From an uncultured Sutterella sp. (lineage in GTDB: Bacteria > Pseudomonadota > Gammaproteobacteria > Burkholderiales > Burkholderiaceae_F): a DNA stretch of 8,069 nt. A program made the translations under genes and the position numbers. The notes below the pieces were generated by a model that did not search any database, had not been told where the DNA came from, and saw only the letters and a list, made by a program, of their open reading frames with translations. The stretch spans positions 1,785,106 to 1,793,174 of the forward strand of contig LR994475.1 in the NCBI GenBank assembly GCA_905186105.1, read 5' to 3'. Shown here piece after piece: positions 1,050-7,399 of this stretch (position 1 is the stretch's first letter; each line of letters opens with the position of its first letter).

Positions 1050-1656
1050 ATGCTTCAGAGTCCCATCAATTACGCCTATCAAGACGCGAAACAAATGGCT
1101 TCGTTTTTGTCGCAGCCTGCGTCTTTTCAGCCGATTTTTGACGAGGTCGCCCATCGTCGTGGGTTTCCTTACACTTTCGCCAATCGCGTCCTCTTCGGGT
1201 TGAGCTTCAAGACTCAACTATCGGTGATTGCGTTGATGACCTTTGCGCAACAGTCGGCACGTCTCAAGAGCCTGAATGACGCGCCGTTAGATTGGCAAGA
1301 CGACTACTGCCGGTACCTATTGGCTGATGTTGATTTATCACGGGAACACGTTGCTTAGCGAAACCCGTCACTACAAAACGTACACAAAAACACTGACGCC
1401 GCTCTTACCGATCGCGATTGAAACAGGCAAGCGTCTGAGCGTACCGACCTTTGAAACGGACGCAGGACGCCTCTTGGTTGAAGGCGTCAGTGTTCGAAAA
1501 GAAGCCGACCTTGGTCACCTTGTTGAACGCCTCTCGACACCCTTTTGGCGCGTTGACTTTGATGAAACGTCACACAACGAAGCGTTTAAGCGCATGATGA
1601 CCGAAGACTGGAGCACGCACAAAGAACGGCTTCCGAGTTTTAAGGCTTACGCTTAA
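1050..1656 (+). pseudogene. Unrecognised gene, about 201 aa, with one apparent frameshift near 1334-1344
   Basis: I do not recognise this protein. Two overlapping open frames (1050-1358 and 1327-1656) read as one protein once a single base is removed. The first frame runs smoothly to residues RYLLADVDLSR and then stops at 1356-1358. The second continues as NTLLSETRHYKTYTKTLTP to a TAA at 1654-1656. Removing one base from TTT (1334-1336) or GGG (1342-1344) joins them into about 201 residues. The second frame has no convincing ribosome site before its first ATG at 1327, which argues against two separate genes. The start is uncertain: ATG 1050 has no clear Shine-Dalgarno, and GTG 1029 in the same frame has a weak AGG before it. 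No signal peptide, membrane segment or known motif is evident. It is divergent from the ribokinase gene and overlaps the end of the 320-aa gene tail to tail by 17 bases. Whether it belongs to the retron locus is unknown. Confidence 0.55.
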
Positions 1657-2602
1657 TCGTCGAAGGAAGCAACGCTTTTTGCCACAGGGTCACGAGTCCA
1701 GCCAAATCGCGACACCAAAGCCAAGGATAGTGCTCGTGCAACTGAGTAAAGAGCGTCATTGAAATGTCGACATATTGGTTTGCCGTTTCACCGTCAAGCC
1801 GGTAAAGCTTGGCAGGCACCGGCACACCATCAGGCAAACAGACAGGGCTAACCAACTGATTTTTCCCAATAGAGAGTTGCAAAAACGTGTCTGGATCGCT
1901 CGCCATCAAGTACATGGAGACTTCTGGTGGCACTTCTAAAAGCACTTCCTCAGCCGTTGCTTTGAGACGCGGCAAGTAAAACTTTTGCAATTCTTGTTGT
2001 TCACCAGTAGCCATTAAACGAAGCAAAGTCCCCGTCACTCTCCTGCTTGACCTCAACAGCGTCAAGAACGATTCACTGCGAGCGTCTTGAGCTAGAAGAA
2101 GTTTCAAGGTAATTTGGTCACCTAAAGCTATCTCAACCGAGCACCCTGTGCCCATTTCGGTTAAATACGTTTGATCCTCTTTTGAGAAGACACCTACTGA
2201 TGCATAACGTGTCACGTGTTTAGGCACTTCTCTATCTTTATAGTCAATGTACTTCGCGACCAAGGGCGCAAAGTCGATGGACTTTCGCTCGCCGACCGCT
2301 TCTATCTGCCAACCAAACGAACCCATCCCAATAAAAATAGGATCCATGACTAAAATGGGCGATCGACTTCGTTGCGCCATGAGCGCTGCCAAAATAAGAG
2401 GTATGCGCTCATAACGAAAAGGCACAAAAGGTTGGGTTTGTTGACTCAAAAAAGCCGTTTTCCAAGCACGCATAAATCTCGAATATCGATCACAAAGCTC
2501 GCTTTCTATAGCCTGATAAAGGTGAGACTGCAATGCCTTCTGATGACAAGCCAAAAGCGACAGTGTCTCGATATGGACACTCACATTCTGATTTCCCTGC
2601 AT
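1640..2602 (-). CDS. Unrecognised 320-aa protein downstream of the retron RT
   Basis: I do not recognise the family. The frame is intact, from ATG 2602-2600 to TAA 1642-1640. The frame is open to a TTG at 2626, but the ATG is preferred because AAGGA (2615-2611) lies eight bases before it. It starts 40 bases after the RT stop on the same strand, so it is very likely co-transcribed with the RT. The N-terminal third looks helical (LALLACHQKALQSHLYQAIE region). The middle holds a beta-like stretch around SPILVMDPIFIGMGSFGWQIEA. The C-terminal part is mixed and ends in a basic tail (TIKRKP). No transmembrane helix, nucleotide-binding loop or nuclease motif was seen. By position it is a candidate accessory or effector protein of the retron, but this is inference from gene order only. 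Its stop overlaps the end of the convergent plus-strand gene by 17 bases. Confidence 0.8.
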   Translation of the reverse strand: MQGNQNVSVHIETLSLLACHQKALQSHLYQAIESELCDRYSRFMRAWKTAFLSQQTQPFVPFRYERIPLILAALMAQRSRSPILVMDPIFIGMGSFGWQIEAVGERKSIDFAPLVAKYIDYKDREVPKHVTRYASVGVFSKEDQTYLTEMGTGCSVEIALGDQITLKLLLAQDARSESFLTLLRSSRRVTGTLLRLMATGEQQELQKFYLPRLKATAEEVLLEVPPEVSMYLMASDPDTFLQLSIGKNQLVSPVCLPDGVPVPAKLYRLDGETANQYVDISMTLFTQLHEHYPWLWCRDLAGLVTLWQKALLPSTIKRKP

Positions 2603-2610
2603 GATTCTTA

Positions 2611-2615
2611 TCCTT
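2611..2615 (-). promoter_or_regulatory. Ribosome binding site that fixes the start of the 320-aa gene
   Basis: AAGGA on the minus strand, eight bases before ATG 2602-2600. The alternative in-frame TTG at 2626 lies upstream of this site and has no comparable sequence, so the ATG is the likely start. Confidence 0.6.
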
Positions 2616-2642
2616 ATTGCGCACAAACCGTGGTTTTTTGCC

Positions 2643-3533
2643 TTAAAGCAGCCTCAAGTCGTGCCATGAGGCGAGCACCCTCCTCCGCTTTAACGCTCGC
2701 CAAAAGGTAAACCGACCTCGCAATTGCGCGACGGTTTCGGGCTTACCGTCCCAAAGTAAGGGTCTCCCCATTTCCAATGCATGAACGGTCGCGCGCAAAC
2801 GTCGACACGTTTCTCGATTGACACTCACACGATCGTTGACGACGAGTCCCGTGCAACACTGACGGCGTCCACGGCGAAACACATTAGTCTTTTTGGGGTC
2901 AAGCATCAAACCTATGGGTTTAAGCACACCTTTAGCCACACCCAACAAACTGACCGCGCCTTCGCCACCCGAAAACGTGATGTCGTCGGCATAGCGTGTG
3001 TAGGTACAACCTTTGCTCGTTGCCGCATCCGTCAACAATTCGTCTGTACGCAAAAGCACGCGATTCAGTAACGCCGGCGAGGTTGGCGCACCTGTTGGCA
3101 AAACGCCTTGCGACAAGCAAATATCGGCAATTTTGAGAATCGCGCCATAAGACAAACATTCGCCTAAATCACGCTTTAACGTGTGAACCACTAACCCACG
3201 ACCAACGCTTGGGAAACACGAATGGATGTCTGCCGTCGTCACAATCGACTGACCAACATGACGCTCAGCGTTCCCAGTGATATTGCGCCCAGGGACAAAG
3301 CCAAAAGCCGCATCATGAGCACCCAAAGGCTGCAACAGCTTGACGTTAATCAGCGTCTGCAAAGCCTTCAGGGCGCGTTCGGGCGCGTAGATATCGCGTA
3401 CACCGCCACTTTTCTTTGGGATCGTACTATGGCGATAATGCGCGTCAAATCGGAAACCAAAAGGCGCTTTAAAGTCCATCATGCCCATCACCTGGCGGAT
3501 AAGTGATACGTATGACGGTCCAAGCACTAACAT
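2643..3533 (-). CDS. Retron-type reverse transcriptase
   Basis: An RNA-dependent DNA polymerase of the retron group. Family members prime on a branching guanosine of their cognate RNA and make msDNA. Counting from ATG 3533-3531 it has 296 residues, close to the usual 300-330. Motifs seen in order: YRHSTIPKKSGGVRDIYAP (about 33-51), the GFVPGRNITGNAERH stretch (78-92) containing the retron NAxxH motif, motif A ADIHSCFPSV with Asp102, LPTGAPTSP (145-153), YTRYADDITFS with the YADD box at 181-184, and CTGLVVN (227-233), which matches the VTG motif region of retrons. Two oddities: Thr147 stands where LPQG proteins have Gln, and Cys stands for Val in VTG. There is no maturase or intron-type domain. 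Start is uncertain: ATG 3533 lacks a clear ribosome site, whereas ATG 3482 has AGGTG six bases upstream and would give 279 residues. It follows the 836-aa gene by 24 bases and precedes the 320-aa gene. Confidence 0.93.
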   Translation of the reverse strand: MLVLGPSYVSLIRQVMGMMDFKAPFGFRFDAHYRHSTIPKKSGGVRDIYAPERALKALQTLINVKLLQPLGAHDAAFGFVPGRNITGNAERHVGQSIVTTADIHSCFPSVGRGLVVHTLKRDLGECLSYGAILKIADICLSQGVLPTGAPTSPALLNRVLLRTDELLTDAATSKGCTYTRYADDITFSGGEGAVSLLGVAKGVLKPIGLMLDPKKTNVFRRGRRQCCTGLVVNDRVSVNRETCRRLRATVHALEMGRPLLWDGKPETVAQLRGRFTFWRALKRRRVLASWHDLRLL

Positions 3534-3625
3534 CAATTCAAACCAAGCGGCATCGTTTTACCACTTCGATGCCATGATCGTGCGTACGTTATCGGGCACT
3601 ACGCCTCGTGCTGACCACACCTCGC

Positions 3626-4072
3626 TCAAGGCTTTGAGCGAATGGTGTACTCGCAAATAGGCATAAACATCACCTTCGTCACCGTCTGGTCCTTGCTGAG
3701 GTAAAACTTCACGTCAGCAGTGGTGACATCAGATGTTAAAGCCTTCAGACGCGCTTCGGGCGCAATCACGTATCGCGCCAAAACCACGTCGACCCAACGG
3801 GTTAATTCGGGCGACATGACATCCTTGGCGTGCTCACACAAATACTGAAGAACAGCCTCGCCTTTATCTACCATGCGTTCTAAACACATATCCAAACAGC
3901 GCGCCTCACGAATCCCTAAAAAGTTCGACGCTGTCTCGATCACTTCGTCGTACCCATGATCGTCACGCTTTAAGAGGCGATCCTCTGGTAAACGCCACCC
4001 TTCTTTAAGCGAAGAACACGTAGCGCAAAGAAGTGACGACTCGAAAGCGCCTTGGGCGATGTGGCATAGCAC
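3626..4072 (-). CDS. Fragment 5 of the broken 836-aa gene
   Basis: Authentic from EGWRLPEDRLLKRDDHG (about 4003) to TTADVKF at the A4 run 3703-3706. The first 20 or so and the last roughly 25 residues of this open frame are out of frame. The remaining true C-terminus lies in a third frame (about 3702 to the TAA at 3560-3558), reading LPQQGPDGDEGDVYAYLRV and ending NVRTIMASKW. Confidence 0.5.
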   Translation of the reverse strand: MLCHIAQGAFESSLLCATCSSLKEGWRLPEDRLLKRDDHGYDEVIETASNFLGIREARCLDMCLERMVDKGEAVLQYLCEHAKDVMSPELTRWVDVVLARYVIAPEARLKALTSDVTTADVKFYLSKDQTVTKVMFMPICEYTIRSKP

Positions 4073-4188
4073 GCATTTAAATCACGTACGCCAACACGAT
4101 CGACATAAGCATCCAAAAGCTTGCCTGTCATTTTGGGTAGAAGCGTTTTCAAAACTTCTTTTACCAACTCAAAACGGCTTTGATCCAT
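3970..4188 (-). CDS. Fragment 4 of the broken 836-aa gene
   Basis: Authentic from FELVKEVLKTLLPKM (about 4173) to ALRVLRLK at 4004-4006, where one A is missing from the coding-strand A-run. The tail KGGVYQRIAS is out of frame. Confidence 0.5.
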   Translation of the reverse strand: MDQSRFELVKEVLKTLLPKMTGKLLDAYVDRVGVRDLNACYATSPKALSSRHFFALRVLRLKKGGVYQRIAS

Positions 4189-4454
4189 GCCTCAGGCATG
4201 TCGGTTTCAATCACATCCTGCTGAATCAAACGAAGTAAAGTCTGACGATGCGATTGTGACTTCGCACTTTTAAGCCCTTGAACGACGACCTCTTTACGAT
4301 AATCTCGATCACCCACAAAGGCTGTGCATCGCAACAGTTCGGTCGCAAGTGCGACATACGAAAAGCGTCGTCCACCCAAAATCAAGTAACCCGTGCCTTT
4401 ATGGTCTGTACACCACGAACGTTCCAAAAGCGACGTGACAAAATGACGGCGCAA
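4161..4454 (-). CDS. Fragment 3 of the broken 836-aa gene
   Basis: Authentic from about 4440 (VTSLLERSWCTDHKGTGYLILGGRRF) to AWIKAV at about 4175, where one T is missing from the coding-strand T-run (plus-strand A4 4171-4174). The last few residues before its stop are out of frame. Confidence 0.5.
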   Translation of the reverse strand: MRRHFVTSLLERSWCTDHKGTGYLILGGRRFSYVALATELLRCTAFVGDRDYRKEVVVQGLKSAKSQSHRQTLLRLIQQDVIETDMPEAWIKAVLSW

Positions 4455-5145
4455 GTACCGTATTGCTTGTCAAAGCCCGATAAGCCTCGAGCAACTGGTC
4501 GTCATAAATTCGATCAAAAGGATCTCGTGAAAAAGCTTTACGCCTACAATTTCCCAGGATCTTATCGACCAAAAAGCGTCTCGGCACTTCATCCATCACG
4601 CGCTTGGCATCTGCCTGAAGGACGACAGACCAGAGGCCATTCTCAACACAAGCTTTAATAGGCACTTGTAACCAACAAGGATCCGTGGACTCAATGACTC
4701 GGGCAGCCAGCTTCAAGTGCTTCGTCAAAAGTAGCGTTTGAATCGCCTCTTTTTGCGACGCATCAACCGCCTTCAAATACCCACTCAACCACACCAATTT
4801 CTGTTGCGCAATGCCCGCATTCAAAGCCAAGGTCAAACTCTCAAGCGTAATCTTGGGCCAACCAACGACCTTAAACATGTCCTCGCGGTTAACAGCGCGC
4901 CAAATCGTCGACAACGGCAAAGGATCGTACGCCTCTGGATAATTCTTCACCAACTTTTGCGTCGCAGATTGCGCTGCACACGCTGTCATCACTGGCATGC
5001 CAATCTCGTTGATGAGCTTTTGTAATTGACGGTCATCAAAGCATTGAAGAAGGTTTTGATCAACCAAAACCTGACTAAAAGCCTCAGGGTCACCTATACC
5101 AGCGAGGTACTTTGAAACCAAGTAAATGACTGAGTGCAGTGGCAA
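4399..5145 (-). CDS. Fragment 2 of the broken 836-aa gene
   Basis: Continues the large protein in the next frame. The frame is open further upstream than its first usable start, back to just after the frameshift at 5175-5179, and reads IRRGTLWIKELPLHSVIYLVSKYL. The true sequence runs to LAPSF at the A4 run 4440-4443, after which the frame reads about 15 incorrect residues to its stop. It is entirely helix-like, with no recognised motif. Confidence 0.55.
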   Translation of the reverse strand: MPLHSVIYLVSKYLAGIGDPEAFSQVLVDQNLLQCFDDRQLQKLINEIGMPVMTACAAQSATQKLVKNYPEAYDPLPLSTIWRAVNREDMFKVVGWPKITLESLTLALNAGIAQQKLVWLSGYLKAVDASQKEAIQTLLLTKHLKLAARVIESTDPCWLQVPIKACVENGLWSVVLQADAKRVMDEVPRRFLVDKILGNCRRKAFSRDPFDRIYDDQLLEAYRALTSNTVLAPSFCHVAFGTFVVYRP

Positions 5146-6067
5146 CTCTTTGATCCATAAAGTTCCACGTCTGATTTTTCTTGCGTTTCAAACGCTTAGC
5201 TAACGTATGCTTACTTGAGGAAATCATCCGCTTCTTCAACGCTGCTTGCAGATCAGGTTGTAGTGGGTGATCAATCAACGCATTGGGCACCCTCTCGAAA
5301 AGCTCGTTGAGCTTATCAAATTCGAGTTTTTCCCAAGCATTGTTAACGCTAACCAGAATGGATCTAAGACCACAATTCGCCAAGTCTTCAAGATGTTGGA
5401 GAGCAGACCCACCCAAGAAGAATTCGTCCGCCACGTCTCCGTGCATAAAACCCGATATGAGATCTTTTGGAAGAAGGAGCGTAGCCTCAGGTTCGCATTT
5501 GGTCACCCGAATGCTATGTGCCTTGAGGTAACCAACTAAAACCTGAAGTTCAGCTTGAAGCATGAGGGACTTCAAGCCTTTGAATGAGGACAATTTTTGA
5601 ACTAATTGGAGAACATTTGGAGTGGAAGAATGCGCCCACTTCGCTAATAGATAGCGTAGTTGAATCTCCGTCGGCAACGCTGTACAAAAGCCTGGCAACA
5701 CCAACGTCTCACCTTTAAGTAAATAGGTCGCAGCCTCGCTTGACGGTGGATATTGAGCCTCAATGTCTTGAGCAACGGACGCTAACGCACCACGCTTAGC
5801 GATGCTAAGGAGGATCGCTTGGTTTTCGGGCTCTGACTTAAAGAAGGCATAGCTAAGACGTAAAACTTCAGCCTCACTCAAAGTGGGAAAGGCTTTGATG
5901 ACCTCAGCAAATCGCGCTTCGCCGTTAGCTGTCAATTGCGCAACTAGGGCTTCAAAAAAATTATCTGCATAAGGGTCGAGTGTCTCAAATGCTCTAGTGA
6001 TTTTTTGTTTTGGAAACAACGTCCTAAGGTTCACAACCATCCTATTAGCATTCTTTATTCGAAACAT
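5090..6067 (-). CDS. Fragment 1 (N-terminal) of the broken 836-aa gene
   Basis: Open frame of 325 codons from ATG 6067. The authentic part ends near Lys-Lys at the T5 run 5175-5179 (A5 on the coding strand). The roughly 30 residues after it, ending at the TGA 5092-5090, are out of frame. It contains long Leu/Ala-rich helices such as EIQLRYLLAKWA and LQAELQVLVGYLKAH and a basic stretch KHTLAKRLKRKK before the frameshift. Confidence 0.6.
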   Translation of the reverse strand: MFRIKNANRMVVNLRTLFPKQKITRAFETLDPYADNFFEALVAQLTANGEARFAEVIKAFPTLSEAEVLRLSYAFFKSEPENQAILLSIAKRGALASVAQDIEAQYPPSSEAATYLLKGETLVLPGFCTALPTEIQLRYLLAKWAHSSTPNVLQLVQKLSSFKGLKSLMLQAELQVLVGYLKAHSIRVTKCEPEATLLLPKDLISGFMHGDVADEFFLGGSALQHLEDLANCGLRSILVSVNNAWEKLEFDKLNELFERVPNALIDHPLQPDLQAALKKRMISSSKHTLAKRLKRKKNQTWNFMDQRVATALSHLLGFKVPRWYR

Positions 6068-6123: not shown

Positions 6124-6339
6124 CGTTCAAGACCCAATGAAACTGCCAACCTACTTTGACTCCATCAATGAGCACGAAGCGACGGCGAGCATGTTTTAAA
6201 CGGACCTTTAGAGCCTGTCTAAACGGTCCTTAAAACAGGCGACCCGAGTGAAGCGCTCGAAGCCACTGCTTGACTTGAACGCTGACCTAGCGATACACCA
6301 GGCATAGCCTAGATTGACAGATCCATTGGTTCTTAACCG
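6124..6339 (-). ncRNA. Retron-like msr-msd RNA, unit 4 (nearest the protein genes)
   Basis: The outer stem has a 20-position core, 6329-6310 against 6153-6134, with one mismatch and three G-U wobbles; broken pairing continues outward to 6339/6124. GG follows at 6309-6308. Stem-loop 1 (6302-6286) is CCTGG, loop TGTATCG, CTAGG, with a G-U pair possible only in minus-strand RNA. Stem-loop 2 uses AGTG/CACT (6267-6264 with 6250-6247). The msd-like hairpin (6236-6193) has 7 bp GTTTTAA/TTAAAAC, a small bulge, then 11 bp (one further bulge) around the 5-nt loop CAGGC. The 39-nt tail ends in AAG before a2. The unit ends 56 bases before the ATG of the 836-aa gene, so the RNA and mRNA probably share a primary transcript. 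Confidence 0.75.
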
Positions 6340-6429
6340 AGAACGAAAGCCGATGACATAGCGCACCACTGTCACTAAGCGCAATGGTTTTTCGAAAGTT
6401 GATACGTTTAGGAAAAACAAACAATCGCG
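6340..6429 (-). other. Spacer between RNA units 3 and 4
   Basis: 90 bases without a gene. The minus strand shows a small hairpin TGACA/TGTCA and repeats of GCGC. The stem-loop 1 motif and a1/a2 ends are absent, so it is not another unit. No convincing promoter. Confidence 0.3.
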
Positions 6430-6621
6430 AGAAACAAAACACGGCATTACCTACTATTTCTACTGTGTCAGAGCGAATAGCGTAAGAGCGACCGCCCCCT
6501 CTGGCTTTTGGTCAGAGCCGTGGGCTTCGTGATGAGCGATGCGCACTGGATTAACCGCTTTACACCGATCACATCTGGCAAGCCGCCAGACTTAACCTAG
6601 GTAACACAATGCTTTGCTTCT
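6430..6621 (-). ncRNA. Retron-like msr-msd RNA, unit 3
   Basis: The outer stem spans 24 positions, 6621-6598 against 6453-6430, with one mismatch and several G-U wobbles. The inner seven pairs, TTACCTA/TAGGTAA, are perfect. GG follows at 6597-6596. Stem-loop 1 (6590-6574) has the same TCTGG/CCAGA stem as unit 2, but its 7-nt loop is CGGCTTG instead of TGTATCG. Stem-loop 2 is GTGAT/ATCAC (6572-6568 with 6533-6529). The msd-like hairpin is the shortest, 6525-6494: GCCC/GGGC and CTCTG/CAGAG around a 9-nt loop. The 40-nt tail ends in TAG before a2. Because its loop and msd deviate most, this unit may be partly degenerate or have a different specificity. Confidence 0.72.
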
Positions 6622-6636
6622 ATAGCGACTGCTTGT

Positions 6637-6848
6637 CGATTAAGCCCAAACAACTTTTTCCGTTTCACAATCCATAAAGGAAGGCGAACGAAGAGCAGCG
6701 AAAGGGGACCGCTTGATTTAAGCGTAAGCGGACATCAAGCGCGCCCTTTCGCTGCTGCAAGTGAGCAGGCGACCGGGACTACTGCGCTTCAAAACCACTT
6801 ATCTGGCGATACACCAGACCTTAACCTTGTTTTTATCTGACTTAATCA
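6637..6848 (-). ncRNA. Retron-like msr-msd RNA, unit 2
   Basis: The outer stem is imperfect: GATTAAGTC at the 5' end pairs with GGCTTAATC at the 3' end (9 bp, one U-G wobble; a further U-G pair outside). After an internal loop, AAACAA (6832-6827) pairs with TTGTTT (6653-6648). GG follows at 6826-6825. Stem-loop 1 (6818-6802) has stem TCTGG/CCAGA and the same loop TGTATCG as unit 1. Stem-loop 2 (6800-6759) is AAGTG/CACTT with an inner GCAG/CTGC. The msd-like hairpin (6756-6694) is the strongest in the array: 13 perfect base pairs (AGCAGCGAAAGGG and complement), a small internal loop, then 8 bp (CGCTTGAT/ATCAAGCG) around a 16-nt loop. The 40-nt tail ends in AAG before a2. Confidence 0.76.
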
Positions 6849-6984
6849 TCACGAGAAAACGGTCATTTGAGCCTAAGCCTTAACGACACACTTTGTCGCG
6901 ATGAGATGCACTATAGCACCAATAAAATTTTTAGAAGACATTGATTTGATCCTGAAACATGGATCGTGGCGATAAAAGTGAGGA
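6849..6984 (-). other. Spacer between RNA units 1 and 2
   Basis: 136 bases without a gene. The minus strand has a small hairpin CGACA/TGTCG near 6884-6898 and a TATAGT that could be a -10 box near 6911-6916, but no acceptable -35 box at the right spacing. A separate promoter for units 2-4 is possible but not demonstrated. It has no stem-loop 1 motif, so it is not a fifth unit. Confidence 0.35.
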
Positions 6985-7196
6985 TTTGCACCTTAGAACG
7001 TAACTCAAACCGTCGAGATGGCGGTCTATTTTCGTGGGATAACGCTGTCCGAAGCTAGCGCGCTTATTAGCATGATAAGCGCGCACGATTGAGGACAGTA
7101 GCTTGATGATTAACCTCTGCCACAAGCGTAAATCAGAGGTCATTCATCACACTCGACGATACATCGAGCAAGCATCCTTACGTTCTAAGGTGCAAA
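6985..7196 (-). ncRNA. Retron-like msr-msd RNA, unit 1 (first transcribed)
   Basis: Read on the minus strand. The ends are a perfect 19-bp inverted repeat, TTTGCACCTTAGAACGTAA at 6985-7003 against its complement at 7178-7196, matching the a1/a2 stem of retron RNAs. After a1 comes GG (7177-7176), the candidate branch site. Stem-loop 1 is at 7168-7152 (CTCGA, loop TGTATCG, TCGAG). Stem-loop 2 is at 7149-7104, an inner 7-bp stem ACCTCTG/CAGAGGT and an outer 6-bp stem. The msd-like hairpin is at 7098-7045: 6 bp CTGTCC/GGACAG, an internal loop, then 10 bp GCGCGCTTAT/ATAAGCGCGC around a 7-nt loop. A tail (7044-7004) ending in GAG precedes a2. Size and layout agree with experimentally known retron RNAs. 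An alternative pairing, AAGCTA 7052-7057 with TAGCTT 7099-7104, may compete with the base of the msd hairpin. No promoter with good boxes was found upstream. Confidence 0.85.
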
Positions 7197-7230: not shown

Positions 7231-7251
7231 AAAACGGGGCTTTCACGCCCC
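7231..7251 (-). terminator. Possible intrinsic terminator after the SNF2 gene
   Basis: On the minus strand a GGGGC/GCCCC hairpin (7251-7247 with 7240-7236, 6-nt loop) is followed by GTTTT. It lies about 175 bases after the SNF2 stop and 35 bases before RNA unit 1, so it could separate the two transcripts. The stem is only 5 bp and the T-run is short, so strength is doubtful. The T7 run just upstream of the hairpin is not in the position needed for termination. Confidence 0.4.
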
Positions 7252-7306
7252 CAAAAAAATCTGACAGTTTTTTGATATGGACCAAAAGTCGAAATTTTTA
7301 CGGTAT

Positions 7307-7399
7307 CAATGATCCTCTCAAACGACCTTCGTTGAGCCACCCTACTCCTCTCAAACCCAAGCAGGGCTTGAAAGGTAAAGAATGGCGACAGGATCATTG
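7307..7399 (-). other. Structured element in the SNF2 3' region
   Basis: A perfect 10-bp inverted repeat (CAATGATCCT at 7307-7316, AGGATCATTG at 7390-7399) encloses two small hairpins: CTCAA-a-CGA/TCG-TTGAG at 7317-7336 and CAAGC/GCTTG at 7358-7370. It lies within the 3' untranslated part of the SNF2 transcript, 28 bases after the stop. It lacks the stem-loop 1 motif of the retron array. It might be an mRNA end structure or another small RNA; the strand is assumed from the neighbouring gene. Confidence 0.35.

Follow-up and report, generated by a model that had tools for sequence, protein, structure and literature searches.

The window analysed here, a stretch of 8,069 nucleotides from the genome of an uncultured Sutterella sp. 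(a single contig of 2.70 Mb), carries on its minus strand, in 5' to 3' order, the final part of a gene for a SNF2-type helicase, an array of four ncRNA-like units (designated U1 to U4), a large gene that ends in a retron reverse transcriptase (RT), a gene encoding a protein of 320 amino acids and a ribokinase-like gene (Table 1). A consensus scan of the region identified no convincing promoter for the array: three promoter-like sites were found with 1.8 expected, which is the level of chance. Two ORFs that overlap on the plus strand (894-1358 and 1327-1656) resemble a single gene split by a frame change, as is also seen in the RT fusion gene.

The 320-amino acid protein is likely to be encoded in the same operon as the RT fusion. 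It has four homologues in the protein collection, the nearest being a cluster of 112 members, and no Pfam, NCBIfam or PADLOC family matches it above chance. The structure model obtained for this protein was poor (mean pLDDT 45.6) and was set aside. No relatives of the protein are encoded downstream of the fusion gene in three of the related loci described below (G040, G105 and G012).

Table 1 Features of the locus, with positions numbered along the window
Feature	Position	Strand	Details
Promoter-like site, weak	7294..7321	-	Upstream of U1; 9/12 matches in consensus scan
Terminator-like hairpin	7236..7251	-	Between helicase gene and U1; consensus match only
U1	6985..7196	-	a1 7196-7178, GG, stem-loop 1 7168-7152, msd-like region, a2 7003-6985
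U2	6638..6847	-	a1 6847-6827, GG, stem-loop 1 6818-6802, long msd-like hairpin, a2 6653-6638
U3	6430..6621	-	a1 6621-6598, GG, stem-loop 1 6590-6574, msd-like region, a2 6453-6430
U4	6124..6339	-	Closest to fusion gene; a1 6339-6310, GG, stem-loop 1 6302-6286, msd-like region, a2 6153-6124
RT fusion gene	2614..6067	-	ATG at 6067; family profile 6031-5096 (1.9e-23) and 3554-2694 (3.3e-152)
Retron RT part	2643..3536	-	YADD motif; Pfam RVT_1 1e-17; PADLOC RT_XIII best, 3.6e-65; PDB retron Ec86 RT 1.1e-28
320-amino acid protein gene	1640..2602	-	No assigned function; ATG 11 nt after predicted stop of fusion gene

Anatomy and covariation of the four units

The array spans 1.07 kb, with units of 212 (U1), 210 (U2), 192 (U3) and 216 nt (U4). 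All four have a common anatomy in which an A/GG junction at the end of the a1 arm is followed by 5-7 nt, a 17-nt stem-loop 1, a further 120-148 nt and an AG/T junction at the start of the a2 arm. Stem-loop 1 consists of 7 bp and a triloop and is complete in every unit. The outer a1/a2 helix is a perfect 19 bp in U1 and extends over 24 positions in U3 and 30 in U4, in both cases with G-U pairs and a few mismatches. Arm scores were compared with those of 300 shuffles per unit in a search space fixed by stem-loop 1, and no shuffle reached the score of U1 (45.0), U3 (51.9) or U4 (46.8). The weakest arms are those of U2 (25.8, reached by 16 of the 300 shuffles), the inner arm of which comprises six exact pairs (AAACAA with TTGTTT) in the same register as in the other units. 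When ungapped arms are sought freely, the highest-scoring one in the vicinity of U2 pairs 6876-6855 with 6661-6640 instead, and the outer part of U2 is therefore uncertain. Scanned freely for long-range helices, the 1.5-kb region gave scores of 46.8 for U4, 45.0 for U1, 41.5 for U3 and 30.5 for the arm near U2; across 40 shuffles, the best arm had a mean score of 28.4 (maximum 40.5) and the fourth best a mean of 23.8 (maximum 27.4).

The fold energies of all four units are below those of their shuffles (100 each), with z scores of -8.2 for U1, -5.7 for U2, -3.3 for U3 and -7.2 for U4, and the predicted msd-like hairpins differ from unit to unit. The elements looked for in an ncRNA adjacent to a retron RT, namely a1/a2 repeats, a junction guanosine, msr stem-loops and an msd hairpin, are present by sequence and predicted fold, the arms of U2 being weak. 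A preliminary description of this DNA had proposed four consecutive msr-msd-like units on the minus strand between 6124 and 7196. The extent is exact, the outermost arms lying at 7196 and 6124, and arms, junctions, stem-loop 1 and an msd-like fold were recovered in each of the four. The tail of 39-41 nt given there for all units was not borne out: the predicted folds read as about 41, 40, 32 and 35 nt before a2.

Between the window units the arms are wholly different in sequence and complementarity is kept. The units cannot be aligned outside stem-loop 1; only two of the six possible pairs, U2-U3 (2/200 shuffles) and U2-U4 (3/200), align above chance, both by way of this element. In a set of seven units, all 49 stem-loop 1 cells are paired, four of the seven pairs are changed on both sides and the covariation score is 0.680 versus 0.366 for shuffled sequences (0/500), with further pair types not raised (460/500 shuffles). 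Composites of the inner arms and stem-loop 1 were assembled by hand from arms picked for complementarity, which inflates the paired fraction; with this caveat, 95.6% of 91 cells are paired in the seven-unit composite, nine of 13 pairs are changed on both sides and the score is 0.751 versus 0.318 (0/500; further pair types 105/500). For the window units alone, the composite, subject to the same caveat, has 52 of 52 cells paired, nine of 13 pairs changed on both sides and a score of 0.923 versus 0.425 (0/500). A lack of covariation had been named at the outset as a possible refutation of the units; the check came out in their favour, with scores above all 500 shuffles, albeit with arms chosen as described.

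The RT fusion gene and its product

The C-terminal part of the fusion is a retron-type RT with a YADD motif, and its assignment to the retron kind is also backed by its fold in a structure search. The preliminary description had placed a single retron RT downstream of the units on the same strand. The retron RT is confirmed, but it forms the C-terminal part of a far larger protein, the gene for which is broken here. Judged by its ORF pieces, which lie in all three frames, the gene has about six frame changes and an in-frame TAA (3558-3560); tblastn against the window with P0125, an intact protein of 1153 amino acids from a cluster of 172 members, indicates at least four frame changes. The RT of P0125 is 97% identical to that of the window. 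Compared with window positions 6067-2617, P0125 matches at 98.8% over residues 1-324, at 71.5% over residues 326-697 (a gapped alignment that crosses frame changes), at 89% over residues 689-791, at 96% over residues 792-1129 and at 100% over residues 1125-1153.

Runs of one or two Ns are scattered through stretches of the same genome (G000 L248-L253 and L112; 14-41 runs per 20 kb), and none is present in three stretches of G002. Given the scattered Ns and the intact cluster of 172 members, the breaks are most likely consensus or assembly errors rather than real gene damage, and a pseudogene reading of the gene was rejected on the same grounds. The rpoB gene is unbroken in this genome. Two frame-switch models found no switch anywhere in the window and are thus blind to the known breaks. 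The window and an N-free stretch share the same borders.

The structure model of P0125 (mean pLDDT 85.0, pTM 0.51) consists almost entirely of helices from residue 14 to residue 865, followed by the RT. On the basis of the helix pattern in this model, the N-terminus of about 860 residues may be an alpha-solenoid. No Pfam family matches the N-terminus, and in a structure search with the whole fusion the RT fills the list, with no match to the helical N-terminus among the matches listed. Two further members of the family, P0127 and P0128, are 94-100% identical per 100-residue block in the RT but only 41-46% identical over residues 101-500. This combination of a constant RT and a hypervariable N-terminus points to either diversifying selection or domain swapping. 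Candidate effectors are the N-terminus of the fusion and the 320-amino acid protein encoded downstream.

Related loci and specificity of the motif

Within the family, the fusion protein was found in five of 67 genomes: the window's own, G040, G105, G012 and G048. It was also found in three of the 399 genomes of another family in the same order (G1083, G1010 and G1176; at most two candidates were scored per genome). The G048 locus is a near copy of that of G012 and was dropped from the kin counts, whereas G1083 and G1010, which have near-identical units, were counted as two loci. Each of the six distinct kin loci has one unit, located upstream of the fusion gene, with arms, the same junctions and a related stem-loop 1. 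In G105 and G1176, a2 is located close to the first ATG of the open frame or beyond it, and the true start there may therefore be further in. Extra AGG-hairpins, present within 4 kb at five of the six loci, do not carry the motif and were put down to chance. The single unit of G048 (L108, 4450-4700) is separated from the fusion gene frame by mobile-element-like ORFs (about 5493-9078); the G012 locus is uninterrupted.

It had been suggested that a single conserved unit at homologous loci, with the others drifting freely, would speak against an array. The kin loci do have one unit each, but in the extra units of the window the junctions, stem-loop 1 and the pairing of the arms are preserved. The array itself was observed in one genome only. 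The RT is absent from the 11 other genomes of the genus examined, and searches scoring at most two candidates per genome found matches in two of 399 genomes across the order (its own and, as a weaker match, G337) and in one of 369 across the class (its own). None of the five genomes in the family of G091, a type XIII retron bearer discussed below, has kin of the fusion RT. The RT parts of P0001 and of the G040 fusion share 98% identity, and in the wider protein family 515 homologues pass an E value of 0.001 among 7994 scored candidates.

To gauge specificity, we used a strict signature consisting of A/GG, a 17-nt hairpin of 7 bp, AG/T and at least six inner pairs. Its only matches in the window are U1-U4; it has none in 480 kb elsewhere, and a scan of other strands totalling 5.5 Mb gave 10 (three in 2.70 Mb, seven in 2.26 Mb and none in 0.59 Mb). 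A laxer version with four inner pairs gives one more match in the window (at 5084) and six in the 480 kb. Kin provide a fairer check because the signature was partly derived from the window units. The G105 unit fits with seven inner pairs and those of G012, G048 and G1010 with four; at four inner pairs there was no match at the G040 or G1176 unit. When the units are laid out by hand, A/GG and AG/T are present in all seven kin units (G048 included). A combined scan for arm, GG and hairpin gave totals of 61.7 for U1, 58.5 for U4 and 58.2 for U3, with U2 under the arm threshold, and 21 matches in 240 kb of own-genome strands, the best with a total of 52.1. Applied to 80 other retron-type RTs, for each of which 2.5 kb of upstream sequence was scanned, it found one unit at five loci and two or more at none, which is weak evidence since the scanner is tuned to the window family and misses other layouts as well as U2.

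Searches were also made outside the locus. Apart from one weak plus-strand microRNA match far below threshold, an Rfam scan of the window (E up to 5) found nothing. The array DNA has no match in phages at E up to 0.1, and thus no target is hinted at, and its own genome contains no second copy: the six rows returned were the array itself, three for its own self-complementary arms and hairpin, and two weak short matches. The exact U1 sequence occurs nowhere in the viral contigs. Eight matches to the stem-loop 1 pattern in these contigs, none with an RT of the family on the same stretch, were taken as chance. Relatives of the RT are at most 37% identical among the best 80 of 352 in viral contigs and at most 41% identical in plasmids and in phages (two records each).

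Interpretation and known systems

In the current understanding, a retron comprises a single RT, a single ncRNA and an effector, and the msDNA is what phage factors contact. To our knowledge, known retrons have one ncRNA per RT. On balance, we favour the reading that this locus is a retron in which four divergent units of msr-msd layout precede one RT-fusion gene, and that recognition of stem-loop 1 and the junctions, common to all units, likely allows the enzyme to copy each into its own msDNA. All four units are likely to be copied; with one RT and four different templates, one enzyme would thus likely make four different small sensor DNAs.

The array would probably be transcribed together from upstream of U1. 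Closure of the a1/a2 arms would place the guanosine of A/GG opposite AG/T in each unit, a geometry that can be read directly from the DNA, and the RT, as in known retrons, would likely prime from the 2'-OH of this guanosine and copy the msd tail and hairpin. Priming through the 2'-OH of a guanosine next to a1/a2 is described for retrons (PMC8989520). Four RT-msDNA complexes differing in their DNA would result, and these may co-assemble through the fused protein. The last step is the least certain: binding, cleavage or modification of any single msDNA by a phage factor might release the N-terminal or neighbouring effector and stop infection, and such an OR-gate over four msDNAs might widen the range of triggers. 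The msDNA of Eco8 is a trigger-bound sensor, phage SSB binding it and thereby releasing the effector (PMC13158370); by analogy, each unit would yield one msDNA on the shared RT, the system would respond to damage to any of the four, and the array may serve to sense several triggers. A more specific proposal, which we put forward tentatively as possible rather than probable, is that of a natural multiplexed retron: an RT-solenoid would copy four ncRNAs into a panel of bait msDNAs, damage to any of which would fire the same effector, and the baits would diversify alongside the hypervariable N-terminus.

Several other explanations merit consideration. Only one or two units might be live templates, the rest being old copies in decay or out of use, as the single unit at the six kin loci, the weak arms of U2 and the fold of U3, the weakest of the four (z -3.3), might suggest. 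However, in all four units both junctions (A/GG and AG/T) persist, stem-loop 1 has its full 7 bp and six or more inner pairs remain in the arms, even though the sequences can no longer be aligned outside stem-loop 1. Copies drifting freely should have lost these features, which counts against decay; we regard this explanation as unlikely but deserving of serious weight. Were all four copied, they might still perform the same job and serve to supply more msDNA relative to the RT fusion. The common stem-loop 1 and junctions, which make all four compatible with one RT, are consistent with an effect of dosage of this kind, but near-identical copies would suffice for it, and units that cannot be aligned outside stem-loop 1 and that differ in their msd-like hairpins make it rather improbable.

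We give little credence to an obligate mixed assembly, in which the four RNAs or msDNAs would be different structural parts of one multi-protomer complex, all of them needed. The RNA part of a retron Eco2 protomer wraps the neighbouring RT in a trimer (PMC12405507), and the N-terminus fused to the RT is large and predicted to be helical; set against this, the six kin loci with the same fusion presumably work with one unit. That the array is an artefact, whether of chance inverted repeats or of assembly error, is very hard to credit. The consensus does contain scattered one- or two-base Ns, the gene behind the array is frame-broken, and the lax signature finds its additional matches in the window and in the 480 kb, but the background of the strict signature is far too low, the units are too dissimilar for an assembler to have multiplied them, and the motif recurs before the same gene in kin.

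The reading that we favour, four templates for one RT, would be new in providing a natural four-template array before one retron RT, itself part of a fusion gene. The impression in the preliminary description that such an array is undescribed agrees with searches of an open-licence library, in which no natural multi-ncRNA retron was found, an absence that is weak evidence. If correct, this reading would make it testable which part of the ncRNA an RT needs, given units that share stem-loop 1 and the A/GG...AG/T junction, and whether the sequence of the msDNA sets the trigger. Engineered retron arrays would also gain a precedent in nature, and a set of compatible templates for one RT would be at hand.

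In common with retrons in general (Ec86/Eco1, Eco2/Ec67, Eco7, Eco8), the locus has a retron RT, as judged by profile, PDB match and fold, together with a1/a2 arms, a junction guanosine and an msd-like hairpin; it differs from them in its four divergent ncRNA units and in the fusion of the RT to a predicted helical N-terminus of about 860 residues. The PADLOC type XIII retron combines RT_XIII with WGR/HEAT-ARM and SWIM proteins. RT_XIII is the best profile for the RT of the window and for P0125 (2e-68), and the helical N-terminus of the fusion recalls the HEAT-ARM partner. The scores of 219 bits for the window RT and 229.5 for P0125 (219-230) are, however, well below the 627.5 of the G091 example, and the window has a single fused gene. 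G091 (L110), from the same order of bacteria, has the canonical set of type XIII retron genes (WGR/HEAT-ARM, SWIM and RT), and SWIM and WGR profiles both match there at E below 1e-200. In the window, with E values of up to 1 admitted, neither SWIM nor WGR matched the downstream ORF or the three N-terminal ORF pieces searched (those other than the short pieces 4161-4454 and 3970-4188), and neither was among the best 25 of 61 families for the RT piece. There is likewise none in P0121 or P0123, and the best 25 of 47 matches for P0125 are all RTs. No HEAT-ARM profile is among the matches listed, the N-terminus being predicted to be nearly all-helical.

The RT-Toprim, RT-TIR and RT-protease fusions in PADLOC resemble the product of this locus in that a single polypeptide carries the RT together with a putative effector or scaffold, but in the present fusion the added portion lies at the N-terminus, is about 860 residues long and has no Pfam family. 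Finally, engineered retron arrays reportedly bring several retron templates together, to judge by the title of the 2024 work of Gonzalez-Delgado et al. Those arrays are man-made for genome editing, whereas the array in the window is natural and its units are divergent.
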